The position numbers and the translations under genes are program-made. The notes beneath the pieces were generated by a model that saw only the letters and a program-made list of their open reading frames with translations, did not search any database and was not told the origin of the DNA. A stretch of 51,669 nucleotides of DNA from positions 1-51,669 of IMG/VR virus record IMGVR_UViG_3300030103_005822; one strand, given 5' to 3'. Every line of letters begins with the position of its first letter. The first letter of the stretch is position 1. Shown here one piece after another: positions 30,433-47,838 of this stretch. The stretch comes from a virus.

Positions 30433-31653
30433 CTATTTGTAAAAACTTATATATTCTATATTAGGATTAATTTCTCTGATCTTATTTTTTATAGGCTCTG
30501 ATAAATTCCAAGATAATATTAGTCCACAGACTTTATCAACTGTTGCAAAAACTTCGTCACCACATATTTCTATATCTGATAGTGGTGTTGTTTTGCCCTG
30601 TTTATACTTTGAAGTATCTGTTACAAAATCAATCAACGAATTGTTTAAATTCAAAAAGTTTAACAACGTATTTCCTTTTGCGGCTGCTCCAATTGCGATT
30701 ATATTATACCCTTTTTTCTTGTATCTTATAATTTTAGATACAAAATCTATCTTCCTCTTTAATAAATGTTTATTTAAAACTTCATAGGTCTTTTTTTCAA
30801 ATAAGTAAGACTCTTTTTTGATTTGTTTTGTTATATCTTTATAATGTGAAATTTTTTCGTTTAGGTTCTTTTTTGCAATTACACGCAAGGAACCACCGTG
30901 ATAATCAACAACTTCAATATTTACTATTTCAAATTTACACTTTTCCAATAAGTTCTTCAAGGAAGTGATCGTATAATATGTGACGTGTTCATGGTATATT
31001 TGATCTATTTTTTTTGAATCTATTGTTGATTTCCAATAAGGAACTTCAAAAACATAGTGACCACCGTTTTTCAGTAGTGTATTTACACCCATAGTAAAAG
31101 ATATAGGGTCATCTGAATGATTATATACATTATTTGCTATAACTAAGTCGGATGGTCCTACTTTTTCAACTATCCTATCAGACTCCTCTTGGTTAAAAAC
31201 ACAGTTTTCAGTAAATATGCCAGCCTCATTGGCAATATCACACATAGCCCTTGATGCATCAATTCCATATACTTTATTGTTTAATTTATTCTTAAACTGA
31301 CTGAGAAGATAGCCATCATTGGATCCAATTTCATATATTATTGACTCTTTACTTAACGATAATTTGTGACTAATTAACTCACAATATTCTTCCCAGTGAC
31401 TTCTAGATGTTAAAGAATTTGACGATGTATAAGAGTAATCAAAAAGATTATATCTCTCAGTAGCATCAGTCGCTGCCTCAGTTTGAATTAATTTACACTC
31501 CTCACACATAACACAAGAAAGGTTATATACAGGCAATGGCATAGACTTGTGTTTTTTATCAATAAAAGTATCTGCATAAGGATGCATACCAAGATCAATT
31601 ATCTTAGTTAGTTTTGTGGATCTACAAGTTAAGCAAGTTTTTCTTCTAGTCAT
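30433..31653 (-). CDS. NDP-sugar C-methyltransferase-like protein (Methyltransf_13/14 type)
   Basis: A 406-residue protein with the three-part layout of TylC3-type sugar C-methyltransferases: an N-terminal zinc-binding domain (CLTCRSTKL and a CVMCEECKLIQTE pair), a class I methyltransferase core (ESIIYEIGSNDGYLLSQFKN, then VIANNVYNHSDDP, HYVFEVPYW, QIYHEHVTYYTI) and a C-terminal domain with IIAIGAAAKGNTLLNFLN. In known enzymes C3 of an NDP-4-keto-6-deoxysugar is methylated. This indicates that the glycan carries a branched-chain or C-methylated sugar (inference). It overlaps its upstream neighbour by 4 bases. Confidence 0.85.
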   Translation of the reverse strand: MTRRKTCLTCRSTKLTKIIDLGMHPYADTFIDKKHKSMPLPVYNLSCVMCEECKLIQTEAATDATERYNLFDYSYTSSNSLTSRSHWEEYCELISHKLSLSKESIIYEIGSNDGYLLSQFKNKLNNKVYGIDASRAMCDIANEAGIFTENCVFNQEESDRIVEKVGPSDLVIANNVYNHSDDPISFTMGVNTLLKNGGHYVFEVPYWKSTIDSKKIDQIYHEHVTYYTITSLKNLLEKCKFEIVNIEVVDYHGGSLRVIAKKNLNEKISHYKDITKQIKKESYLFEKKTYEVLNKHLLKRKIDFVSKIIRYKKKGYNIIAIGAAAKGNTLLNFLNLNNSLIDFVTDTSKYKQGKTTPLSDIEICGDEVFATVDKVCGLILSWNLSEPIKNKIREINPNIEYISFYK

Positions 31654-32342
31654 TTTAAAGCATCCTGTAATGAAATCTTTCTAAAACATTTTAAGTTTGA
31701 TATAGGGCTACAGTTTATCACTTCTATATCAGCGTGTGCAGCCCTATACGCAAACATATTCCAAGTTGGCATATGAAATTTAATACCATCAGGAATATTA
31801 TATTGATCACCTTTTTGTTGATAGTCATCAAACCAATAGTTCGGGTTCTTATCTGGTGTTTTATCCATAATCAGTCCGGGTCCGTCTTTTTTACTGCCGT
31901 CAACAAATTCAACATAGTTACAGTCTACACCCAAAAGGATAATTTTTTTATACCCCATACAAACAGCCGCCGAACAAGCGTTAGCACCACTATTACCATT
32001 ATCGTGAAACTGAGTAAAACAATCTTCTGAATGGTTCATCTTGTTGGTGCTACCATACGGTAGCATATTTACAAATTGGAAATTATCTTTGTCACTTAAG
32101 TTCCTTATATAAAAGCTCTTTTTAAATTTGCCTGAATCGATAAGATCAATGAAGCTTTGTTGGTGATTATCTGTTACACGATAATCAAAGCAGCCGTGAT
32201 AGGTAGGCCACCAGTCTAAACGAGGATAGGCTCGATAGGCAGAATTTAATCCAAATGTGTCAATACCATCTAGCATAGAAAAATCAACATCCTTAAGGGA
32301 TGGACCATTTCCCATAATAACTATCGTTTCACTCTTAGTCAT
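31650..32342 (-). CDS. GT42/DUF115-like protein (possible sialyltransferase)
   Basis: A 230-residue protein with IVIMGNGPSLKDVDFSMLDG followed by DTFGLNSAYRAYP, closely following the start of Campylobacter Cst-type GT42 enzymes (GNGPSLKEIDYSRLP). A second matching block is GANACSAAVCMGYKKIILLGVDCNYVEF, similar to the CAVAIALGYKEIYLSGIDF region of CstII. A terminal HADIEVINCSPISNLKCF follows. GT42 transfers sialic acid from CMP-sialate; DUF115/MptE-like proteins share the same fold and part of these motifs, so the function is uncertain. It stands in the same island as a NeuA-like enzyme and a GT29-like enzyme. Confidence 0.6.
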   Translation of the reverse strand: MTKSETIVIMGNGPSLKDVDFSMLDGIDTFGLNSAYRAYPRLDWWPTYHGCFDYRVTDNHQQSFIDLIDSGKFKKSFYIRNLSDKDNFQFVNMLPYGSTNKMNHSEDCFTQFHDNGNSGANACSAAVCMGYKKIILLGVDCNYVEFVDGSKKDGPGLIMDKTPDKNPNYWFDDYQQKGDQYNIPDGIKFHMPTWNMFAYRAAHADIEVINCSPISNLKCFRKISLQDALK

Positions 32343-33186
32343 AAAAACTCCAAAATGTAGAACACCTTGTGTTCATATGTTCTCGACAAGATTCAGCACT
32401 ATTAGCCCAAGATTCATATCTATGTTGGACGTTTTCATTTAATATGGTCTCACACCCTAGCATTTGTGCTTCCATAACAAGCCTAGGGCAAGTATCTGCA
32501 CCATCAGGTAAAAATATAAGACCCTTTGAAGTAGACAGCTTTATTAGTAATTCGTGATAAGGCAAACCAGCAACTACTTCTGCCTCTAACGAGTTATCTT
32601 GCGCATACTTGACACATTTTTCATAACCCTTAATCCAAGAGTTTGTTCTAACAATAAGATATTTGTCGTTTTTTTTATTGTCTCTTATCGAGTCAATAAA
32701 TCTTAAATCACCCTTTGAAAAAACAGAATTTAAAGTTTCTGTATTTTCTTCTTTGATTGTCTTAACCTTCTGTAAGAAGATATTCTTTTGCGCATCGCTC
32801 ATAAACCAGATTTTTTTTGCATACCCATAAAAGGCTAAATTTATCTTGTTCTCTTTTATGTCTGCACAATCACACTCCTGACCTGTTTGAATTCTGTGAA
32901 GATCCAAAGATCTGAATTTACAGAATTTGTAGTCGTACTCGACTATAGAATAATTTACATTTTTAATCAAATGAAGTTTTAACCTGTAATCAAGCGAAAC
33001 AAAATTTAATACAACCCAGTGAGCTTCTTTATATTGATTGATTACAGAGCTTGTAAGCTCAGCACATCTTATCTTTATTATGTTTTTATTATTGGGTCTC
33101 CCTTGAATAATAGCCTCCGAGGTAAGCTCCGCTCCACCAACATAATCTTCAGCAAAAGCATCAGCTAAGAATATCATAAGACTCAT
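32335..33186 (-). CDS. Glycosyltransferase, GT4-like (GT-B fold)
   Basis: A 283-residue protein. It begins with MIFLADAFAEDYVGGAELTS, the glycine-rich entry of GT-B glycosyltransferases, and later has KKIWFMSDAQKNIFLQKV, YLIVRTNSWIKGYEKCVKYA and a donor-binding segment KGLIFLPDGADTCPRLVMEAQMLGC. The glutamate in LVMEAQMLGC corresponds to the E(x7)E donor motif. It is shorter than typical GT4 enzymes (about 370 residues). It overlaps the preceding and following glycosyltransferase-type genes by 4 to 8 bases. Confidence 0.75.
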   Translation of the reverse strand: MSLMIFLADAFAEDYVGGAELTSEAIIQGRPNNKNIIKIRCAELTSSVINQYKEAHWVVLNFVSLDYRLKLHLIKNVNYSIVEYDYKFCKFRSLDLHRIQTGQECDCADIKENKINLAFYGYAKKIWFMSDAQKNIFLQKVKTIKEENTETLNSVFSKGDLRFIDSIRDNKKNDKYLIVRTNSWIKGYEKCVKYAQDNSLEAEVVAGLPYHELLIKLSTSKGLIFLPDGADTCPRLVMEAQMLGCETILNENVQHRYESWANSAESCREHMNTRCSTFWSFYD

Positions 33187-34475
33187 ATTAAATCATCCAA
33201 AAGTGAATCCACTTCATCCTCATATTCTTGAACTGTTTTTAAATACGGAGAAAGTTCTTCGTTATTGAAATCCTTATACATCCCCTTAATAACTTTTAGA
33301 TTGTTTTTTTCTCTAAGATAATTTGAAAGATTTTTAGAATCTTCTAGGAACGATTCTTTATTCCTTCGGATAAAATTAAGAGACTTCTTAAAGGAGTCTT
33401 CTTTTGGATAAGCCCAAATACAAGACTCAGTAATTAAACCAGGCATCAAATGTTGTTGTTCTACAGGTTTTAAATCATAAGCTACTTTGATAAAGTGGCT
33501 TTTAAGCTTAGTATTTCCTGCCCTGTTTTTACTGGGGGCTCTAAGAAAATCCAAATGGCCAGACCAGTTTGTTGCTATAATTGGAATACCGTTACAAGCT
33601 GCTCTAAAGATAGGTATACCAAAGCCTTCGCCATGTGTGGCTGTAACATAACAGTCAATATAATCTGGATTATATAATGACTCCATCTCTTGTTCTGTTA
33701 AACTACCGTGAATGAAATAAACCTTACACTTTCTACTAGGCGCTATAGCTTGAAGAGTTGCTTCAATATCCTGCTTTGTTGCATAGAAATCCATAGTACT
33801 ATTATTATGCATATGTGTTTTTACAATAAGTCCTACTTCTTCATCGTCTTTAAAGTTCTCTATAAACCATTTTAATGTCATCCCAAAGTTTTTTCTTGGT
33901 GCCATTTGAAGAACAGTAAGAAAGTTAAACTTTGTTTTAATATTCATACCTTTATAGATGTCTATTTGTTCCACAGTATCATCGTGTCCAAATGGTACAA
34001 CTGTGATCGGACACGAAATCCCAACACCGTTTTCATCTTTTGTATTTTTAAGGTTTTCTTTTGCGTGATTGGATACAACTAAGATATGTTTCATAGTGTT
34101 ACACTTAGCAACCCATTCTGATGGTGCAAATGTTGTTTCTAAAGCGGCCGTGACACCTATGTCGTGTGGTGACATAGGATGGAATTCATTAGGTGGTCTC
34201 ACTTGGTAAGTGGCAGTAAACAAGTCACTTATATTAATATTACCTTGAGCATCCTGTCGAGATACAAAAAGCCGATTTGTTTTGTCAATAAGATTTTTGT
34301 ACTTTTCGTAATATTTTGAGCTACGACTAGTAGCAGCCCACTGTGTATCTTGGACATAGACTTCTATTGTATCTTGTAATTCCAACAATGAGTCCAGTAA
34401 TGTTCTTGCGTGTTCACTGTAGCCTGATAGGTTGCAAACGGGACCAACCACTAATATTTTAGGTTTATTAATCAT
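33183..34475 (-). CDS. Glycosyltransferase family 4
   Basis: A 430-residue GT-B enzyme. The N-terminus, ILVVGPVCNLSGYSEHAR, holds the Gly-rich acceptor loop. Near residue 170 PSEWVAKCNTMKH is followed by HILVVSNHAK-type residues. The donor domain has FLTVLQMAPRKNFGMTLKW and a C-terminal EGFGIPIFRAACNGIPIIATNWSGH, in which the glutamates bind the nucleotide diphosphate. It is one of two adjacent full-length GT4 proteins. Donor sugar is unknown; it likely extends the glycan made by this island. Confidence 0.85.
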   Translation of the reverse strand: MINKPKILVVGPVCNLSGYSEHARTLLDSLLELQDTIEVYVQDTQWAATSRSSKYYEKYKNLIDKTNRLFVSRQDAQGNINISDLFTATYQVRPPNEFHPMSPHDIGVTAALETTFAPSEWVAKCNTMKHILVVSNHAKENLKNTKDENGVGISCPITVVPFGHDDTVEQIDIYKGMNIKTKFNFLTVLQMAPRKNFGMTLKWFIENFKDDEEVGLIVKTHMHNNSTMDFYATKQDIEATLQAIAPSRKCKVYFIHGSLTEQEMESLYNPDYIDCYVTATHGEGFGIPIFRAACNGIPIIATNWSGHLDFLRAPSKNRAGNTKLKSHFIKVAYDLKPVEQQHLMPGLITESCIWAYPKEDSFKKSLNFIRRNKESFLEDSKNLSNYLREKNNLKVIKGMYKDFNNEELSPYLKTVQEYEDEVDSLLDDLI

Positions 34476-35731
34476 AATTCCACTGTCCTAATATTATTGT
34501 ATTTCTTTCTATTATCCCAAGATCCTCTTTCCTCATGAACTCGCAACATCAGATCAACCCACTGTTTCTTAAAAACATCAAAATTGTAGTTGTTCTTAAC
34601 ATGTTGTTGTCCAAGATCGCCTAGTTCTTTTAGTTCTTGGGGAGTTTTATTATACATTTCTAGAAGAGCGTTAATAAAGTCGTCTTTGTTAATTCTATCC
34701 TCGTAAATGTATGGCACCTGCTGCGATCCAATCACAGCCTTAGAGCTTGGCTCAATTCCAATACCAAACCATTTCTCTCCATCCGTGACTTGTTCCTGTA
34801 AACCACCTGTCATATTAACAATAATTGGAGTGCCGCAAGATAGAGACTCAAGAGTTGCCAACCCGAACCCCTCTGCATCTGAAATATTAACTGTACAATC
34901 AGCCATTGTGTAAAGCGCTGCTAATTGTTCAGCCTGAAGTTTATTGGTAGAAAGAAAAATCTCCCCGTCATTAAACCCTAAATGAGAAGCAAGGTAATGC
35001 AATGGTTGCCCATGGGGATCGGTAGGATCAGTATGCATAAACAAACAAACCTTTGATCGATCTACATCCTCCCTCTCTAGAAATTCCTTGAACCAATACA
35101 CCAAACTACCAGACTGTTTTCTTCTAGCGTTCCGATTATTCCAGAAAAATATAAATTTATCTTTTAGTGTTGGATTTATTTTATATAGGTCGTCTATTTC
35201 TTTTGAAGGTCTTGGATAGAAATGATCTGAATTTACTGCGTGTGGAACATATTCTTCCTCAACTTCTGGGCAGACGTTCTGAACTATATCGCTTGTGACT
35301 TTTGAAATACTTGCGATTACATCATTAGCATCATAATATCTCTTGTTATATTTTGGGTATGGGTAATTATCCCAAACGTGATAGTAAACCATAGGTAGCT
35401 TATCTCGAATTTGATCGTCTATTGACCACAACCACTCATAAAAACGTGGATCGGTCATAAAATATAGGATATCTGGTTTTCGATCTCTAATAAATTGACC
35501 AATCATTTGAGCATTGCCATAACCATCAACTGGGAATATTTCCCAAAATCCTGGATATCCTTCAATTTTTTTAGGTTCATAACTCTGGTGTTTAATCGCT
35601 CCTCCAAGGGAGATCACATTAAATTTGCCACTATTAAGAAGGGCTTCTATAACATATTTTGTCTGGGTCCCTACTCCAGAAGGCAACAAAGGGTGGTCAC
35701 TTATCGTCATAACCGTAATTTTTTTATCCAA
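34472..35731 (-). CDS. Glycosyltransferase family 4
   Basis: Starts with TTG at 35731 (GTGAGG seven bases upstream), 419 residues. N-terminal motif MTISDHPLLPSGVGTQTKY is the GT4 acceptor loop. Donor-domain motifs are FIFFWNNRNARRKQSG, then KLQAEQLAALYTMADCTVNI and DAEGFGLATLESLSCGTPIIV, with the E(x7)E pattern intact. It precedes another GT4 gene with a 4-base ATGA overlap, suggesting consecutive sugar additions. Unusual non-ATG start, shared with several genes of this island. First gene of the island. Confidence 0.85.
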   Translation of the reverse strand: MDKKITVMTISDHPLLPSGVGTQTKYVIEALLNSGKFNVISLGGAIKHQSYEPKKIEGYPGFWEIFPVDGYGNAQMIGQFIRDRKPDILYFMTDPRFYEWLWSIDDQIRDKLPMVYYHVWDNYPYPKYNKRYYDANDVIASISKVTSDIVQNVCPEVEEEYVPHAVNSDHFYPRPSKEIDDLYKINPTLKDKFIFFWNNRNARRKQSGSLVYWFKEFLEREDVDRSKVCLFMHTDPTDPHGQPLHYLASHLGFNDGEIFLSTNKLQAEQLAALYTMADCTVNISDAEGFGLATLESLSCGTPIIVNMTGGLQEQVTDGEKWFGIGIEPSSKAVIGSQQVPYIYEDRINKDDFINALLEMYNKTPQELKELGDLGQQHVKNNYNFDVFKKQWVDLMLRVHEERGSWDNRKKYNNIRTVEL

Positions 35732-38615: not shown

Positions 38616-38638
38616 AAAAAAGCCGCCCGAAGGCGGCT
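38616..38638 (-). terminator. Rho-independent terminator of the tmRNA
   Basis: On the minus strand the tmRNA 3' end runs into a stem of AGCCGCC and GGCGGCT closing a TTCG loop, followed by at least five T. The stem begins with the final A of the tmRNA CCA end, so the terminator is immediately downstream of the mature RNA. This is a textbook intrinsic terminator. Confidence 0.92.
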
Positions 38639-38961
38639 GGTGGAGGTAGGGAGAATTGAACTCCCGTCTTGTCTAGTTCCATAGAGAGGTCATTCACAAG
38701 GTTAGAACTGTTTTTTTCGTCGGACAGACCACTTGACTAGATCATCTTATTATGGCTGAGATAATCAAAAGCACTTAGAAGACAAAAATACGGCTTTCTG
38801 TTTCTTGGCTGCCGTCGCCTCAAGTCAAGTCAGGTTATTAAGCTGCTTGTGCTAGTTGAAAATCGTCGTTTGCGATTAAAAGATAAGCGTTTTTAGTGAG
38901 CCACGCTTCCCTCACCCTTGCACCTTTTCTACTTTCCTATCAATCGATTCCGGTTACCCCC
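38638..38961 (-). ncRNA. ssrA: tmRNA (transfer-messenger RNA)
   Basis: A 324-nt RNA. The 5' strand GGGGGTA pairs with 3' TACCTCC, followed by discriminator A and an encoded CCA. The T-arm is GGGAG-TTCAATT-CTCCC. The tag frame lies at 38838-38873: resume codon GCA, then AACGACGATTTTCAACTAGC, ending GCAGCT-TAA-TAA. The tag peptide is ANDDFQLAQAA, with the usual AND start and an AA end recognised by ClpXP in known systems; the bases before it (TAATCGCAAAC) match the usual upstream context. tmRNA with SmpB rescues stalled ribosomes. It is encoded in an otherwise phage region. Whether it is used by the phage or is host-derived cannot be told. Confidence 0.95.
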
Positions 38962-39935: not shown

Positions 39936-42900
39936 TTATCTCCGTCTTTGACGTTTTGCTCTTCTAACTTTAGGTTTCTCTGTTTTAGATCGTTTCCTTA
40001 TATTAACAGTTCCGCCTCTTGGGGCGGCATATCCGGCAACCGCCCCACCAGCCATGGCAGCCATCTCATCAATAGTGTCATCTATCACTGAGTTCAACCT
40101 CTCAGTTTGAGTAGTTAAAGAATTCCAAAGAGCATTGCCATCAATTGAAGGGGGAGCATAAGATAGAAAAGTTTCTTTATCTCCGTCAGCAAGAGCTTTT
40201 CTCATATCACGAGCACTATAAACAATACCATCCTTAGACTGGACAGGATCTTCAACGATATCCTCCACATTTACACCAGGGTTATGACGCTCAGCATACG
40301 ATTGCGCACGATCAAAGCGAGTATCCCCTACATCCTTACTGCTCTTGACTAAAAGGATTGTATCTCCATCTGAGGCTGACTCAGGATCAGCAACAAATTC
40401 GTAGACTGCCTGGACTGGACTACGATAGTCAGCGATCTTAGCTGTGATGTTTGGTTCACCATTCTCAAGATATTCTTCCCAGATGCGCAAACTTTGCGCA
40501 TTGCTTACCTCTGGGTAATCAACGGGAGAAATTAAAACAATCACCTCATCAACATCAGACCGTTTAGCAATCTTATTCACATAATCAAAGTGACCACGAT
40601 GTGGTGGCTTAAACTTACCAGGAAATAGAGCTATGCGCTTACCTTCTTTTTCAGTGATAACTTGAGTGGTGTTATTTAGTGATTCGTTTCTTTGGGCTGG
40701 TGCTGATTTATCTTTAGCAACTTGAGTTTTCATCTCTTGTCCGATAATTTCACTATTTTTAATAGCTCCATCACCAGCAGTAATAGCATCACTCCTATCA
40801 CCGTAAGTGAAGTACCCATCTATATCATCAGATAAGTTTTTTGTAGCCTTGAAAATTTCTTCAATAGAACCCCCAAGACGGTCCATATAGTTTTCAGCAA
40901 CAGCAATAATTCTATCAGGTGAAACGGGTAGATTACCAATAATTTTAAACCCTGATATATCTGAGGATATTCCTGTACCTTTTTTAGTATCAGGGACAAT
41001 CTCTTTAACAGATATATTCCAGCTTCTGCCTTTTGCGCTCTGTTCCTCTGTTAATAAATCAGTTTTCCAAAGTTCTCTTTGTTCTTCAATAGTTAATCTA
41101 ACAAGTCCCTCTTCTGCGAGTTCAGGATTATTTTCAACAGGCTGTGTCTCTTCTTCGGGTTGGGTAGCTTGAGTATCTTGTTGTTTTAAACGAGCTTCTT
41201 TTTCTTTCTTTGCCTTCTCATACTTAGCAGCCATGGCATCCCTTTTTTGGGCGCTATATCCGTATGTATTTTTAAGAAGCTCATACCTAACGGGCCATTC
41301 AGCAGCAGCATAGAGCTTCTTTAATTCTTCCACTTGTTTTACGACGTTATTTTTGTATCTCAGTAATCTTCTATCGTATTTAGCGAGTAGGTCTGCTGAT
41401 AATTTTTTATCTTTTTTACCAGGGTAAACAAGGGGTTTATCACCGGAACCAAAAAGTTCATATTTGGCTTTTTCTTGTTTGCCGGCAGTTAATAACTCTA
41501 TAACATTGTCTCGTGTGATAGCAAATTGCTGAATTTGAATTTCGTCGCCTAATTTTCTTGTGACAATATAGAGCATCTCTGGATATTTATTTAAAGCTTC
41601 TACAAGGTTTGTAAAACTTCCCTCTATTTTTCCATCTTCTTTTAATAATTTTAGACTAACAGGGATTCCCTCAGCACCTTCTATAGTTTTGAACGCTATA
41701 ATATCCTCAATAGGTTTACTGCCGTCATCAGGGTCTACTACCTGCTCTCCAGAGAACATGGCTGCTAGAAATCCTTCAAGCACAAAACCGGCTGACGATT
41801 CAGTGAAACTAAGAATCACCGCAGATAAAGATTCTAGAAAGATAAGAGTACTAATAATTCTTCGTGGCGATCTCATATTAGTATCAAAATTGGCTCTTCC
41901 AATTATATCGTCAAATTTAGCTTGAATACTAGTACCACCTGAAATTGTTGCAAAAATCTTCTCAACCTGTTTTCTTTCCATGGATTGAGGCTTGCCCCAA
42001 GACTCATTAGGGGAGAACTTAGGAAGATTTAAAATAAATTGTTTTGCTCTTTCTTTCTTAATATTATTTTCTTTCTCTGTTATGATTGGTTTGTCAACAA
42101 CTAGAGATTCTTTTGTACTTCTTTTTAGGTTCCCGTAGCGGAACATCCCAAGTATCTGATTTAGCGGAGCAAAATTGCCCGCAAACTTGTATGTATGCCC
42201 ATTATAATCAAAGACCACCGCCTCAACTGGAGTAGTGATCGTAGAGAAGTCCTTGATTTTATTGAGATGCCGCTGCATAACAGCCATGGCTTCGGGATTC
42301 TCAGTACCAACTGAAGTGATTTCTTTTACAGCATTCGCAAGCTCATTTTTGAGACGCATTACTTCTTTGTCATTATCTTCGATATAGATACTTCTAAGAC
42401 CTTTTAACAATTCAACAGTAAAATCGTGAATAGCTAACTCTAATGGTTCAACAGATTGTTGAAGCAATACTTTACTACCCGCTATTATTGAGTTAAGGTC
42501 TTGCAAGTCTTGAGGATTCAAGCCTTTTTTTAGTGCTCGGAGTCCTATGTTTCCGGGAAGTTTAAGAATGTAATTTATTATCTCTTCTTTTAAATTTCTA
42601 GGTAATTCAGAATCAATACCATTCATTAACCTTTTGTACATATAATCAAGGATAGTGGAGTCATCATTTAATCCTTCTTTCCTCATCTCATTATTAATGC
42701 GATTAAAAGCTTGATTTAAGGCTTGTCCATCATCTTCAATTTTTTTAATGTCTACTAAAGCTCTTCGGGCTAAATTAAAATCATCGCTGTGAAGTTGGTT
42801 CTCCATTCTCTCCATAGCATTATCAAGAGTTTCGAGAGTTCCTTTGGGGATTGGTGATTGATCTCCAGTTTCACGATCAAACACAAAATGACCAACGTCG

Positions 42901-43328
42901 TGTATTTTTAGTGTTTTATCATCGTAGAGGATAACATTTGCATTACCTGGATCCATAACTTCGGCATTATACCAAATATTTGTGTTGGGTCCAAAGATTC
43001 TCTCTTTCTCTTCGTCTGATAACGCCTCAACAGCTTTTTCAAAAGTAGCAAAGCCGCCACTAAAAGCCTTTTCTAGCCCTCCACGACCAGCAAACTTTTG
43101 TGCAAGCCCTACGGCATCTAAACCGCCAGACTTTAAATTTCCTTTGTTACGGGCTCCCTTGGCTTTTCCCTCGGGAATAGAATAAGAAAGAAATAAATTC
43201 TGACCATCTACTTTTTCTTCGGCGGTCAATTCTCCATTGGCAGCAGCTTCAAGGATCTGCTTCATTTCACCAAATGTTAAATCTCTATTTTCATAGAGAT
43301 GATCCATGTGACCAGCTACGCCACCCAT
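39936..43328 (-). CDS. Large protein: KxDG ligase-like N-terminus and NMN-adenylyltransferase-like domain
   Basis: A 1130-residue protein. The N-terminus (HMDHLYENRDLTFGEMKQIL, then LTAEEKVDGQNLFLSY) has a KxDG motif typical of nucleotidyltransferase/ligase active sites (candidate Lys in EEKVDGQN). It is followed by KGNLKSGGLDAVGLAQKFAG and NIWYNAEVMDPGN, which may correspond to later ligase motifs, but the rest of the ligase fold is not confirmed. Near residue 935-1085 is an adenylyltransferase-like Rossmann domain, IALFPGKFKPPHRGHFDYVN with HxGH, a later RxxR-type VYSARDMRKAL, and a basic C-terminal tail. The same kind of protein occurs, from memory, in marine myoviruses. The domains could process nucleotides, RNA ends or NAD; none is proven. 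Confidence 0.7.
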   Translation of the reverse strand: MGGVAGHMDHLYENRDLTFGEMKQILEAAANGELTAEEKVDGQNLFLSYSIPEGKAKGARNKGNLKSGGLDAVGLAQKFAGRGGLEKAFSGGFATFEKAVEALSDEEKERIFGPNTNIWYNAEVMDPGNANVILYDDKTLKIHDVGHFVFDRETGDQSPIPKGTLETLDNAMERMENQLHSDDFNLARRALVDIKKIEDDGQALNQAFNRINNEMRKEGLNDDSTILDYMYKRLMNGIDSELPRNLKEEIINYILKLPGNIGLRALKKGLNPQDLQDLNSIIAGSKVLLQQSVEPLELAIHDFTVELLKGLRSIYIEDNDKEVMRLKNELANAVKEITSVGTENPEAMAVMQRHLNKIKDFSTITTPVEAVVFDYNGHTYKFAGNFAPLNQILGMFRYGNLKRSTKESLVVDKPIITEKENNIKKERAKQFILNLPKFSPNESWGKPQSMERKQVEKIFATISGGTSIQAKFDDIIGRANFDTNMRSPRRIISTLIFLESLSAVILSFTESSAGFVLEGFLAAMFSGEQVVDPDDGSKPIEDIIAFKTIEGAEGIPVSLKLLKEDGKIEGSFTNLVEALNKYPEMLYIVTRKLGDEIQIQQFAITRDNVIELLTAGKQEKAKYELFGSGDKPLVYPGKKDKKLSADLLAKYDRRLLRYKNNVVKQVEELKKLYAAAEWPVRYELLKNTYGYSAQKRDAMAAKYEKAKKEKEARLKQQDTQATQPEEETQPVENNPELAEEGLVRLTIEEQRELWKTDLLTEEQSAKGRSWNISVKEIVPDTKKGTGISSDISGFKIIGNLPVSPDRIIAVAENYMDRLGGSIEEIFKATKNLSDDIDGYFTYGDRSDAITAGDGAIKNSEIIGQEMKTQVAKDKSAPAQRNESLNNTTQVITEKEGKRIALFPGKFKPPHRGHFDYVNKIAKRSDVDEVIVLISPVDYPEVSNAQSLRIWEEYLENGEPNITAKIADYRSPVQAVYEFVADPESASDGDTILLVKSSKDVGDTRFDRAQSYAERHNPGVNVEDIVEDPVQSKDGIVYSARDMRKALADGDKETFLSYAPPSIDGNALWNSLTTQTERLNSVIDDTIDEMAAMAGGAVAGYAAPRGGTVNIRKRSKTEKPKVRRAKRQRRR

Positions 43329-44783: not shown

Positions 44784-45716
44784 TTACAGAGGTTCAAAAC
44801 CTCCACCATCTTTAACGGAACCAATGTGAAAATATTCATGCAGATTGTTGTGCAAATTTTGCATCATCTTGATCATAGTAGAATCTGTTTTATCTTGATT
44901 GTTGTTTAATTTTTGCCATACTTGCATCTCAGCTTTAGCAATTGAGTTTCTTAAAAATACTTTTATTGCAAGAAGTGGTGATGCGACACCAATGTTTTCC
45001 ATTGATCGATATCCAGCAAAAATATTGCCAATCAATTCATTATTGCTATTAACAATTGGAGACCCACTGCTTCCTGGTTTAGTTGGTATACTATACATTG
45101 CATATCCCTCTGGTGAGTATCCTGTGAAATATCCATCAAATGTCATTACCATTCTTGGGAAAACAATACCGTGAGGTGCTGCCATATTATAAGCAAGTTG
45201 TCCTCTTTTGGGTCGATCTTTAGCTACTTTGAGAGTTGGCGGTTTGGTTAAGACAGTGTTTACTCTTAACAAACACAAATCAAATCTTTTGTCAATGGCA
45301 ACTACATCGGCATTGTATTGAAATCCGTTATAATCAACAACTGTAAATTTTTGACCTAGATGAGTTACAACTACACTGTCTATTTTTCTTTCTTTTATAA
45401 ATGTACTGCGACAGGAGTGTCCTGCGCTTAAAACATAACTTACATCACTTGAAACTTCACTATGTTTAATAAATGATCCTGATGAAACAGCACGGGATTT
45501 TGCATTTTGACATTCAACTTTATTATCTTTGCCAAGTTCACATCCTTTCCAAAGTGTATCACTCCTCAACTGGATAAAGGATTTTACTGGGAAATTGTGC
45601 GCTAATGGTTTTGCCTTGCTGTGGTAAGAAGTACAGGCACCAGAACAGCTTGCAACCGTAAAATATAACAGGGTAATTAAACACACTCTAAAGGTATCCG
45701 TAATTATTCGTATCAT
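44784..45716 (-). CDS. Exported trypsin-like serine protease lipoprotein
   Basis: A 310-residue protein with an N-terminal hydrophobic segment (CLITLLYFTVASCSG) ending in a lipobox at C24. The mature part shows the trypsin-like catalytic triad: H100 in YVLSAGHSC, D146 in RFDLCLLRV and S217 in KPGSSGSPI. C-terminal to it is a helical, Asn-rich tail. Such lipoproteins are placed in the periplasm or outer membrane. It is transcribed away from the three exported proteins at 45802-47838, sharing the 85-base region between them. Possible roles are processing of envelope proteins, or blocking superinfection (both inference). It looks more like a host-derived gene than a virion part. Confidence 0.82.
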   Translation of the reverse strand: MIRIITDTFRVCLITLLYFTVASCSGACTSYHSKAKPLAHNFPVKSFIQLRSDTLWKGCELGKDNKVECQNAKSRAVSSGSFIKHSEVSSDVSYVLSAGHSCRSTFIKERKIDSVVVTHLGQKFTVVDYNGFQYNADVVAIDKRFDLCLLRVNTVLTKPPTLKVAKDRPKRGQLAYNMAAPHGIVFPRMVMTFDGYFTGYSPEGYAMYSIPTKPGSSGSPIVNSNNELIGNIFAGYRSMENIGVASPLLAIKVFLRNSIAKAEMQVWQKLNNNQDKTDSTMIKMMQNLHNNLHEYFHIGSVKDGGGFEPL

Positions 45717-45801
45717 AAAATAACTATTTCCGAATAAAGAGTTTCAGTCTATTTAAGTTGTAATAATGTTATAAACATACAAACCAAGAAGGTGTTATAA
45801 G
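45717..45801. promoter_or_regulatory. Divergent intergenic region between two exported-protein units
   Basis: This 85-base AT-rich region separates the serine-protease gene (leftward) from the exported-protein operon (rightward) and must hold both promoters or one of them. On the plus strand CTATTTAAG (45749-45757) resembles the CTATTTATA motif seen before virion-type genes, and AAGGTG serves as ribosome-binding site. No confident -35/-10 pair was identified. Confidence 0.45.
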
Positions 45802-46101
45802 ATGTTATCAATGTGTCAAAAAATGATTAAAATAGCCGCTTTTGTATTAGCGGCTTTAGTTTTATTTCCATCAACTGCTATTTCAGAGCCAAAAACTGCT
45901 AATTTGCAACCTATTTGGGAAAAAATCAATGGTGAGTGGAAATTTAACGAAGTAAAGAGACAAAAGCACCAAAGTCTTGTCTATGTTATAACTACAACTG
46001 AGAATAACTCCAGTAAAAACATACTTACTAAAGAAATGGTGAAACTCCCCTTCATTCAAATTATAGATGAGAACAAGAAAGAGGGAATATCACTTCACTA
46101 G
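45802..46101 (+). CDS. Small exported protein, unknown family
   Basis: A 99-residue protein with a typical signal peptide (MIKIAAFVLAALVLFPSTAI followed by SEPKT), predicted to be cut after about residue 28. An ATG eight codons in (MIKIAAFVL) is an alternative start. The mature part is basic and short (NGEWKFNEVKRQKHQSLVYV). No homology seen. First gene of the plus-strand exported-protein operon; the next ATG begins 17 bases after its stop. Confidence 0.65.
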   Translation: MLSMCQKMIKIAAFVLAALVLFPSTAISEPKTANLQPIWEKINGEWKFNEVKRQKHQSLVYVITTTENNSSKNILTKEMVKLPFIQIIDENKKEGISLH

Positions 46102-46117
46102 TTTTTTAGGAGAACAT

Positions 46118-46591
46118 ATGACAAGAGTATTAACTAATAGATGGGTGCTCTTATGTGTTCTTTTCGTAACAATCGTAGTATCATCTTTTTTAATATACAA
46201 AAACAATTTTCAGCCAGAATTAGTTTTATTAAAAAATACAACTTATTATTTGCCGGGGCAGAGAAATAATTGTAAGTGGATTTTACAAGTAGAGAACGAC
46301 TTAAAAAATGTTCCTGGTGAAACTACAGAAATTCGTATAGGAATCCCAGAAGTTCAAGCAGATGGATACTTAAGTGGACGAGTAGAGGTTGGGCAACACA
46401 ATAATTTAATGTTAGCCTTTATTCCTCCAGGATCACAAAAAAATAAAGTTCCTGTAATTTTAACAGCCGATTACTCTGAGCAAAAATTACCTATTGATTT
46501 TTTAAGATTTCGATGGGTGCAAAGCAGCACAATAACTATTCTTATATTTTCTTCCGAGGAGAGATGTATAATCTCTAGGAACGCAAAATGA
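46118..46591 (+). CDS. Membrane-anchored exported protein with beta-rich ectodomain
   Basis: ATG at 46118, chosen because AGGAGA lies just before it; the longer frame from 46067 would overlap the preceding gene. It gives 157 residues. Residues 9-25 (WVLLCVLFVTIVVSSFLIY) form one membrane anchor near the N-terminus. The rest is beta-rich with an Ig-like pattern (TTEIRIGIPEVQADGYLSG, VPVILTADYSEQKLPIDF) and two cysteines. Its last bases overlap the next gene (ATGA). It may form an envelope complex with its neighbours. Function unknown. Confidence 0.65.
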   Translation: MTRVLTNRWVLLCVLFVTIVVSSFLIYKNNFQPELVLLKNTTYYLPGQRNNCKWILQVENDLKNVPGETTEIRIGIPEVQADGYLSGRVEVGQHNNLMLAFIPPGSQKNKVPVILTADYSEQKLPIDFLRFRWVQSSTITILIFSSEERCIISRNAK

Positions 46592-47838
46592 AAAAAGTTT
46601 GTGTATTCCTAATTGCGCTCGGGACGATATTGGGCTGTGAAGAAGAGCGGCTTGTAAAATTAGATTGCATTCCGGGCGAAAAACTTGTTTGTGATGAACA
46701 TGGGCAAGATTTTCCTAATGCTGACCCTATTGATATTATTCAAAGATCGGGTCAGTGCTCATACGGATTAAAAACTTGTACAAGGAGTGGATGGTCAGAG
46801 TGTGAAGGCGCAAAAGGACCAGAACCAGAAATATGTGATGGAATTGATAATGATTGTGATGCAGTCATTGACGAGACGTATCCAGAAGAACATCAACTAT
46901 GCGGGTTTGAGGAAAATGTAGATTATGGAGTAGGGATATGCAAACCCGGCGTAATGAGTTGTTACAATGGCGTTTTATACTGCGATGGTCATACAGGACC
47001 AGCCGAGGAAATATGTGATGGAGTAGATAATAATTGTAATGGAACTGTTGACGAGGGACTTCCCAATACAACCGCTGTCGTCTGTTACGAGGGACCAGAT
47101 GGAACTCTTGGAGTGGGCGAATGTAGAGCAGGCGTGAGATATTGTACGGACGGAAACTTTGGTGGACCTTGTGATAGTCAAGTTCTCCCGATAATGGAAA
47201 GGTGTGATGATCTAGACAATGATTGCGATGGAGAAGTTGATGAGGGTTTTGATACTCGTGGTGTAGATTTAGTTTTTGTCCTCGATATATCTGGTTCTTT
47301 TAGAGATGAAATAGACTCGATGATACAAGGTATAACTCCTCTTTTAGATGACCCAATAACGAGCCAGTTTCGATTTGGACTGGTTGTTGTGGGTGCTAGG
47401 GCGGGTGACGACCTAAGACCTCCATATTCTCTTGCAAGAATGGTGTCTGATTTTGTGCCCGCTAATGAGTTTTTGGCTGTGATAGAAGCTGGCAGAATGA
47501 TTGATAGTGCTGGACAGGAGCCAACTATAGATACAATGTTTTGGTCAATGAACACATATCCATTTTCTTGGAGACCAGACGCACAAAAAGTTATTATAAC
47601 AATGACTGATGAAGAAGCTCAAACAATGAATTCTGACCCGATGTCTTGTTTTGAGGTTGCAGATCTATCAAATACTTTAGGTTTTGAGCTTTTTGTATTT
47701 GCCCTAGAGCACCATCATAATACGTTTATAAATTGTGTAAGAGGGGAAAGAGATAGACTTTATACTCCTACAGCAAATTCAGAAACTGTATTTTTACAGA
47801 TCAGAGCTATATTCGAAGACCTTTGTATTGGTCGTTAA
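46588..47838 (+). CDS. Surface lipoprotein with MopE-type metal-binding repeats and VWA domain
   Basis: A 416-residue protein. A lipoprotein signal ends at C17 (ALGTILGCEEE). Three MopE-like metal-binding repeats follow: EICDGIDNDCDAVIDE, EICDGVDNNCNGTVDEGLP and ERCDDLDNDCDGEVDEGFD, all with the Asp/Asn calcium-type pattern and flanking cysteines. Residues about 225-415 form a von Willebrand factor A domain with the MIDAS DxSxS (D233, S235, S237 in VLDISGSFRD) and a later TMTDEEA. Such proteins usually bind metal ions and ligands on the cell surface and are plentiful in Myxococcota-like bacteria. It is very unusual in a phage region. Its stop abuts the next, convergent gene. Confidence 0.87.
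   Translation: MKKVCVFLIALGTILGCEEERLVKLDCIPGEKLVCDEHGQDFPNADPIDIIQRSGQCSYGLKTCTRSGWSECEGAKGPEPEICDGIDNDCDAVIDETYPEEHQLCGFEENVDYGVGICKPGVMSCYNGVLYCDGHTGPAEEICDGVDNNCNGTVDEGLPNTTAVVCYEGPDGTLGVGECRAGVRYCTDGNFGGPCDSQVLPIMERCDDLDNDCDGEVDEGFDTRGVDLVFVLDISGSFRDEIDSMIQGITPLLDDPITSQFRFGLVVVGARAGDDLRPPYSLARMVSDFVPANEFLAVIEAGRMIDSAGQEPTIDTMFWSMNTYPFSWRPDAQKVIITMTDEEAQTMNSDPMSCFEVADLSNTLGFELFVFALEHHHNTFINCVRGERDRLYTPTANSETVFLQIRAIFEDLCIGR

Follow-up and report, generated by a model that had tools for sequence, protein, structure and literature searches.

Introduction

The lipoprotein Bd0875 of Bdellovibrio bacteriovorus is a lipobox-bearing MIDAS adhesin that requires its MIDAS for function (PMC11003981), and CglB of Myxococcus xanthus carries a VWA adhesin domain and is a lipoprotein on the outer-membrane surface (PMC12288465). 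The Cu(I) site of MopE consists of His132, His203, and kynurenine-130 and does not belong to the PF11617 repeat of this protein, which was stabilised by calcium during purification (PMC3423442). Here we describe a phage-encoded protein, c0, in which PF11617 repeats and a MIDAS-bearing VWA domain follow a lipobox, together with three partner genes, c1, c2, and c3. A title and abstract search of an incomplete open literature identified no paper describing a phage MIDAS lipoprotein, and module members were not found in any cultured phage searched.

Results

Position of the Module

The window, i.e., the whole stretch of DNA that was analysed, is a complete IMG/VR virus record of 51,669 bases and probably represents a genome fragment. 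It encodes T4-like features, such as a baseplate wedge protein and a PhoH-like protein, as well as tRNAs and a tmRNA. The tmRNA (38638-38961; tag peptide ANDDFQLAQAA) adjoins PhoH, and a search for host prediction, run without a positive control, revealed no match to it in 141 genomes of one phylum. The window also contains a cluster of glycosyltransferase-like and sialyltransferase-like genes (30433-35731), which might possibly modify surface glycans.

Almost all genes of the window are located on the minus strand. The original prediction had placed a MopE-type, VWA-containing lipoprotein of likely host origin at 46118-47838, behind two other exported proteins on the only plus-strand transcript. 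Indeed, real genes occur on the plus strand in a single run only, 45802-47838, but its divergent minus-strand partner c1 had been missed. The range covers two genes and only the second one, c0, encodes the MopE/VWA lipoprotein, whereas 46118 is the start of the preceding gene c2, which encodes a separate protein. As to the two upstream products, c3 looks secreted as predicted, whereas c2 looks anchored in the inner membrane (Table 1).

Table 1. Coordinates of the c1-c3-c2-c0 module and of sequence features of c0 in the window.
Feature	Position	Strand	Basis
c1, lipoprotein of 310 aa, serine protease of the trypsin-like type (Trypsin_2)	44784..45716	-	PF13365, E=7.5e-15
Divergent intergenic region c1/c3, 85 bp, presumed promoters	45717..45801	.	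coordinates
c3, small protein (99 aa) with a signal peptide for export	45802..46101	+	43/44 close loci plus window
c2, inner-membrane-anchored periplasmic protein, 157 aa	46118..46591	+	AlphaFold2; 44/44 close loci
c0, MopE-VWA lipoprotein, 416 aa	46588..47838	+	Pfam, relatives, AlphaFold2
Lipobox ILGC, predicted lipidated Cys17	46627..46638	+	sequence; lipoboxes in relatives
MopE repeat 1, CDGIDNDCDAVIDE, aa 83-96	46834..46875	+	PF11617; conserved in A1
MopE repeat 2, CDGVDNNCNGTVDE, aa 143-156	47014..47055	+	PF11617, best stretch 139-156
MopE repeat 3, CDDLDNDCDGEVDE, aa 206-219	47203..47244	+	PF11617
VWA domain, aa 226-414	47263..47829	+	Pfam; AlphaFold2 pLDDT mostly 75-92; PDB search
MIDAS loop 1, D233-x-S235-x-S237 (DISGS, 233-237)	47284..47298	+	invariant in 80/80 phage VWA domains
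MIDAS loop 2, Glu311	47518..47520	+	invariant in 80/80; integrin beta-8 best sequence-profile PDB match
MIDAS loop 3, D341-E342 (TDE 340-342; motif [TS]DExxQ)	47608..47613	+	invariant in 80/80

Architecture of c0 and Its Relatives

The N-terminus of c0 is MKKVCVFLIALGTILGC and comprises the lipobox ILGC. In Pfam, Cu-binding_MopE (PF11617) matches c0 in three stretches (E=2.9e-14), in agreement with the three repeats predicted, and VWA (PF00092) matches with an E-value of 3.8e-5, exceeding the curated cut-off. AlphaFold2 proposes a confident VWA fold for residues 225-414 and models most of the MopE region at low confidence. The best PDB chains for this model are VWA and integrin I domains (Z about 17, 2.5-3 Å). 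The MIDAS is complete, with DxSxS, the Glu of loop 2, and the Asp of loop 3 all present, and an alignment of 80 VWA domains (from the window, 78 relatives, and the phage contig G020) shows no exception at D233, S235, S237, E311, D341, and E342, confirming the MIDAS-bearing VWA domain. Whereas most VWA domains possess a Thr in loop 2, c0 has Glu311, presumably in an arrangement like that of the integrin-beta Glu; integrin beta-8 is the top sequence-profile PDB match (E=0.004).

Metal binding in the copper sense of MopE, as the original wording implied, is not supported for c0 because the known Cu(I) site, two His and a kynurenine, is situated outside of the PF11617 repeat. The name of this Pfam family is therefore misleading for c0, where the repeat more likely forms a stalk held by disulphides or divalent ions.

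A scan of viral contigs detected 79 loci with c0 relatives (27-90% identity), many of which are near-duplicates. All relatives possess two to seven MopE motifs, and DxSxS is present in every one bar a C-terminally truncated copy. Lipoboxes were judged by eye on complete N-termini only and occur in each of those read, so that the predicted lipobox holds and no loss of the signal peptide was encountered in close relatives. The more distant phage relatives (27-36% identity) retain lipobox and MIDAS as well. In some distant relatives, genes that were read from their sequence as coding for GroEL-like chaperonins (L074:953-2644, L047-L049, L051, L053, L060, L070, and L077; cluster 25) or, weakly, for a Cpn10-like protein (L071:3145-3465; cluster 9) are found near the VWA gene.

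Longer MopE-containing relatives comprise about 540-750 aa, their length varying with the N-terminal MopE region, which is consistent with a protein that reaches outward from the surface. Such a variation would also suit an adhesin for transmission or cell contact, i.e., a c0 that sticks infected cells to kin, prey, or particles and thereby raises host density at burst, the protease releasing the cells later. The strong conservation of c0 would fit a conserved cellular ligand. We know of no phage that mediates contact adhesion via a lipoprotein adhesin, and we regard this explanation as unlikely, although it is the strongest competitor of the one that we favour. In its support, the closest functional analogues, Bd0875 (PMC11003981) and CglB (PMC12288465), are contact adhesins.

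The Partner Genes

The protease c1 has the lipobox VASC and an apparent His/Asp/Ser triad (AGHSC, DLCLL, GSSGSP). For c2, a TM helix is predicted at residues 2-31 without a lipobox, and in the model (mean pLDDT 88.9) this single N-terminal helix precedes a beta-barrel-like domain, in which two Cys are invariant. A family could not be assigned to c2 from its fold, as only weak lipocalin/avidin-like barrel matches were obtained (best Foldseek E 0.14, VIA Z <=8.1). No significant match was found for c3 in Pfam or PHROG.

Promoters of the divergent transcription units would be expected between c1 and c3. Scanning the module with the sigma-70 consensus gave results no better than chance or shuffles, and the T4 late promoter TATAAATA was discarded, its matches being scattered over large contigs with none upstream of the module. 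A terminator scan yielded eight terminator-like matches versus 2 expected, none of them after c0.

NCBIfam contains no family above cut-off that describes c0, INPHARED has no record for c0, for two distant c0 relatives, or for c2, and offers only weak DegQ-like matches for c1. PADLOC-DB has no match for c0, c2, and c3, and only weak generic protease matches for c1.

A Conserved and Mobile Module

ORF clustering and the gene-order layout of all loci reveal that c0, thought to act as a single factor, is one gene of a conserved four-gene module with c1 on the opposite strand followed by c3-c2-c0. In all 44 close loci c1, c2, and c0 are present, c3 being called in 43, and c0 opposes the strand of nearly all of its neighbours. 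In the 190-kb contig G004, the only stretch of several genes that opposes the genome direction is c3-c2-c0. Distant long forms of c0 are mostly co-oriented with their neighbours.

Among close relatives, the module was found at three different genomic loci. It is flanked by ligase/cytidylyltransferase genes and the fibre region in group A, by genes for DNA polymerase III, class II RNR, and helicase in group B, and by UvdE/SLT genes in group C. The 1,130-aa protein encoded at 39936-43328 of the window combines the ligase-like motif KVDGQN with a cytidylyltransferase domain at its C-terminus and is conserved beside the module in group A. The loci differ between G004, G005, and G008, and the former neighbours remain elsewhere: G005 has homologues of the flanking genes of group A, and G004 has homologues of those of group B, in each case at sites without the module. 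We conclude from this that the four genes move together, that c0 has its partners in c1, c2, and c3 and not in the flanking genes, and that the linkage within the module is specific.

Proximity to fibre-like or tail genes in some groups might suggest that c0 resides in particles or vesicles and aids adsorption to myxococcotal surfaces. However, this proximity is not conserved, group B being a replication locus, the lipobox is kept in every complete N-terminus read, and neither c0 nor c2 nor c3 matches any PHROG at E<=1, structural families included. An adhesin of the virion is thus very unlikely, and no relative of c0 is a known structural protein, the closest ones not being the exclusively structural phage proteins that would have spoken against the original prediction.

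In group C, the protease gene precedes those of a small TM protein and of a lipoprotein that is an SLT transglycosylase. Together with the combination of outer-membrane lipoproteins and an inner-membrane-anchored periplasmic partner, this arrangement might point to lysis or envelope disruption, in which two lipoproteins and c2 would weaken the outer membrane late in a spanin-like manner. Nevertheless, we consider such a role improbable: the linkage to SLT and TM genes is restricted to group C, the SLT homologue of both G004 and G005 being located at a distance from the module, a spanin-like coiled coil was not seen in the c0 sequence, and lysis would not need a MIDAS.

A cascade of regulated proteolysis like that of DegS, RseA, and RseP was considered because in group B a one-TM protein and an M50 protease resembling RseP come after the protease; it was dismissed as the corresponding pair of G004 is located at 186 kb, far from the module. 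RseP-like M50 site-2 proteases are encoded in L007 (1762-2562, minus strand; TIGR00054 above cut-off), L026, G004 (186403-187206), and G008 (34419-35225), and in G004 and G005 the gene adjoins one for a one-TM coiled protein.

Comparison with four relatives gives dN/dS values of 0.06-0.09 for c0 and 0.05-0.10 for c1, so the module is under strong purifying selection. Between the window (44784-47838) and L004, dS amounts to 0.48 for c1, 0.34 for c3, and 1.29 for c0; c1 and c3 thus are far nearer to L004 than c0, which suggests recombination inside the module.

Trypsin_2 genes, one each, are present in eight of eight tested MopE-VWA contigs of at least 97 kb (G004, G005, G013, G016, G017, G019, G021, and G049, a small and non-random sample), adjacent to c0 or elsewhere, and the proteases read in such contigs are c1-like lipoproteins. 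Adjacency of protease and c0 is not constant in distant relatives; in L095 there is an overlap of ten bases between the VWA ORF and that of the protease. Neither VWA nor Trypsin_2 is present in the cultured relatives Microcystis phage Mel-JY01, Flavobacterium phage immuto 3-5A, and Synechococcus phage ACG-2014e, the three that were tested, and G020, which has a VWA lipoprotein devoid of MopE repeats, lacks Trypsin_2. Matches to Trypsin_2 and VWA in LR756508 were set aside as unrelated, signal peptides not being seen.

Origin and Host

When VWA domains of phages (25) and of bacteria (14) were placed in one tree, all 24 phage proteins of the MopE-VWA type grouped together (support 91/92). The VWA domain of G020 is placed among bacterial proteins (support 97/96) on a long branch, tentatively suggesting a second, separate acquisition. 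G020 is a phage contig of 184 kb, in which the VWA lipoprotein gene is situated near a sheath-like gene and one for a thioredoxin-like lipoprotein (G020:62826-63182; L252, L311). As the closest relatives of c0 are all phage proteins of one clade, the host-derived origin that had been proposed does not hold as a recent event, and any capture from a host must be old.

Since Myxococcota genomes typically encode MopE repeats and VWA lipoproteins, one might suspect misassembled host DNA or a recently carried host gene without phage function. Against this stand the same module in 44 related viral contigs of up to 190 kb, where it is surrounded by phage genes, the phage-only VWA clade, and a GC content of the region similar to that of the remaining window. 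Also, no c2 homologue was detected in 195 Myxococcus-phylum genomes, in a search without a positive control. Such an explanation is hardly credible.

The predatory or deltaproteobacterial style seen in c0 is borne out by the distribution of its domains. The VWA profile matches 65 of 146 genomes of the Myxococcus phylum and 65 of 141 genomes of the phylum of an Oligoflexales MAG, versus 4 of 200 in a sample of Pseudomonadota, or 3 of 200 without a misbinned phage contig. The latter (PBOB01000020.1, here L095), a match in an Acidiferrobacteraceae MAG, was treated as misbinned for its phage neighbours; its VWA domain is 65% identical to that of L061. MopE-only matches derive chiefly from Myxococcota/Deltaproteobacteria, the bacterial VWA matches share the Glu/SDExxQ signature, and the nearest cellular VWA subfamily occurs in Myxococcota-type surface lipoproteins. 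Lipoproteins of Myxococcota style are also encoded in G005 (573-2618; L267; MopE plus propeller), in G008 (85067-87307; L280; TIG-domain), and in L095 (10036-11625; LDL-receptor-A repeats).

A second MopE lipoprotein of G005 is 69-73% identical to genes of the Myxococcus-phylum bacterium G203. Some of the G203 copies form a tandem array beside pyruvate-dehydrogenase and lipoate-synthesis genes, assigned by eye from translations, and therefore belong to a bacterial chromosome. Because of this identity to chromosomal genes, the hosts of the phage group are probably Myxococcota, and for the phage of the window such a host is deduced from the shared module.

Discussion

The c0 gene does not represent an isolated capture from a host but the fourth member of a conserved gene module. 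Given the computed gene content, lipoboxes, domain architecture, conservation of MIDAS and protease triad, purifying selection, and module linkage, we propose, with a probability of roughly 45%, that the module remodels the surface of an infected, predicted myxococcotal host, either for superinfection exclusion or for another surface modification. Since Bd0875 and CglB are surface MIDAS/VWA lipoprotein adhesins, c0 is, by analogy, most likely a stalked, metal-dependent binder, with c1 as protease partner and c2 and c3 as periplasmic helpers.

The infected cell would make four envelope proteins from the divergent, counter-strand module. Lipidated at Cys17, c0 would reach the outer membrane and be displayed on the surface, where disulphide-rich MopE repeats, probably stabilised by calcium, would form a stalk bearing the VWA head. 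With a divalent metal, the MIDAS (DxSxS/E311/D341) might grip an acidic side chain of a ligand, and the membrane-tethered protease c1 might cut the ligand captured by c0 or trim and shed surface adhesins. Inner-membrane-anchored c2 and periplasmic c3 would probably localise, assemble, or restrain c0 and c1 across the periplasm. As a consequence, phage receptors or host adhesins would become occupied or removed, superinfection exclusion being the outcome that we infer to be foremost.

We rank exclusion or surface remodelling before contact adhesion and the latter before lysis; the role in adhesion or exclusion that was originally suggested remains the best guess. Several points count against our proposal. 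The strong conservation of the VWA head is easier to understand for a conserved host component as ligand than for phage tips, which change fast. The promoter scan did not exceed chance, the protease of distant relatives does not always adjoin c0, G020 has its VWA lipoprotein without the protease, and the MopE stalk was modelled at low confidence. If the module acts at the surface of the infected cell, it would open a new way to study how the phages of predatory and gliding bacteria control host surfaces, would be a new candidate for an exclusion system, and would serve as a marker that ties a large group of uncultured phages, with contigs reaching about 190 kb, to hosts among the Myxococcota.

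Integrin beta I domains resemble c0 in their MIDAS and in the Glu at loop 2, and complement factor B/C2 combines a VWA domain with a serine protease, which recalls the pairing of c0 and c1 as an analogy only; homology of c0 to these proteins is limited to the VWA fold, and in the phage module the protease is encoded by a separate gene. A rather unlikely idea is that an integrin-beta-type MIDAS receptor, displayed on the infected cell, selects a surface target which the tethered protease then cuts, so that the mobile phage module would be a two-gene analogue of factor B/C2 and, at the same time, a new type of surface remodelling or exclusion confined to phages that infect predatory or social Myxococcota.

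T5 encodes Llp, a superinfection-exclusion lipoprotein, and thereby provides an example of the mode proposed for c0, i.e., a phage-encoded outer-membrane lipoprotein. To our knowledge, the known phage exclusion lipoproteins are small and have neither VWA domain nor stalk nor protease partner. MopE of Methylococcus capsulatus shares with c0 the PF11617 repeat that is named after it, and we know of no VWA head in MopE. As far as we know, the vWA-MoxR-trypsin conflict systems (VMAP) are intracellular and involve NTPases, whereas both c0 and c1 are lipoproteins, and c0 remains without a match in PADLOC. Like the phage module, these systems combine VWA with a trypsin-like protease (PMC7159879).

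Among the studied proteins closest in kind to c0 are Bd0875 and Bd1483 of B. bacteriovorus (NF052240), which possess a lipobox, a VWA domain with a DxSxS MIDAS, and an acidic loop-3 residue (PMC11003981), but they are bacterial and no MopE stalk has been described for them. NF052240 does not match c0 at E<=0.1, and its match to the MopE-less VWA lipoprotein of G020 is weak (22.9 bits versus a cut-off of 700). CglB resembles the proposed c0 in being a lipoprotein that bears a VWA adhesin domain at the outer-membrane surface (PMC12288465), but it acts in the gliding complex of the host, whereas the proteins of the phages cluster in a clade of their own; CglD is matched weakly by two VWA domains from the phage set. 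MIDAS lipoprotein adhesins are known from predatory and gliding bacteria, and the phages described here hold a long-standing, conserved, and mobile version with a dedicated protease partner.
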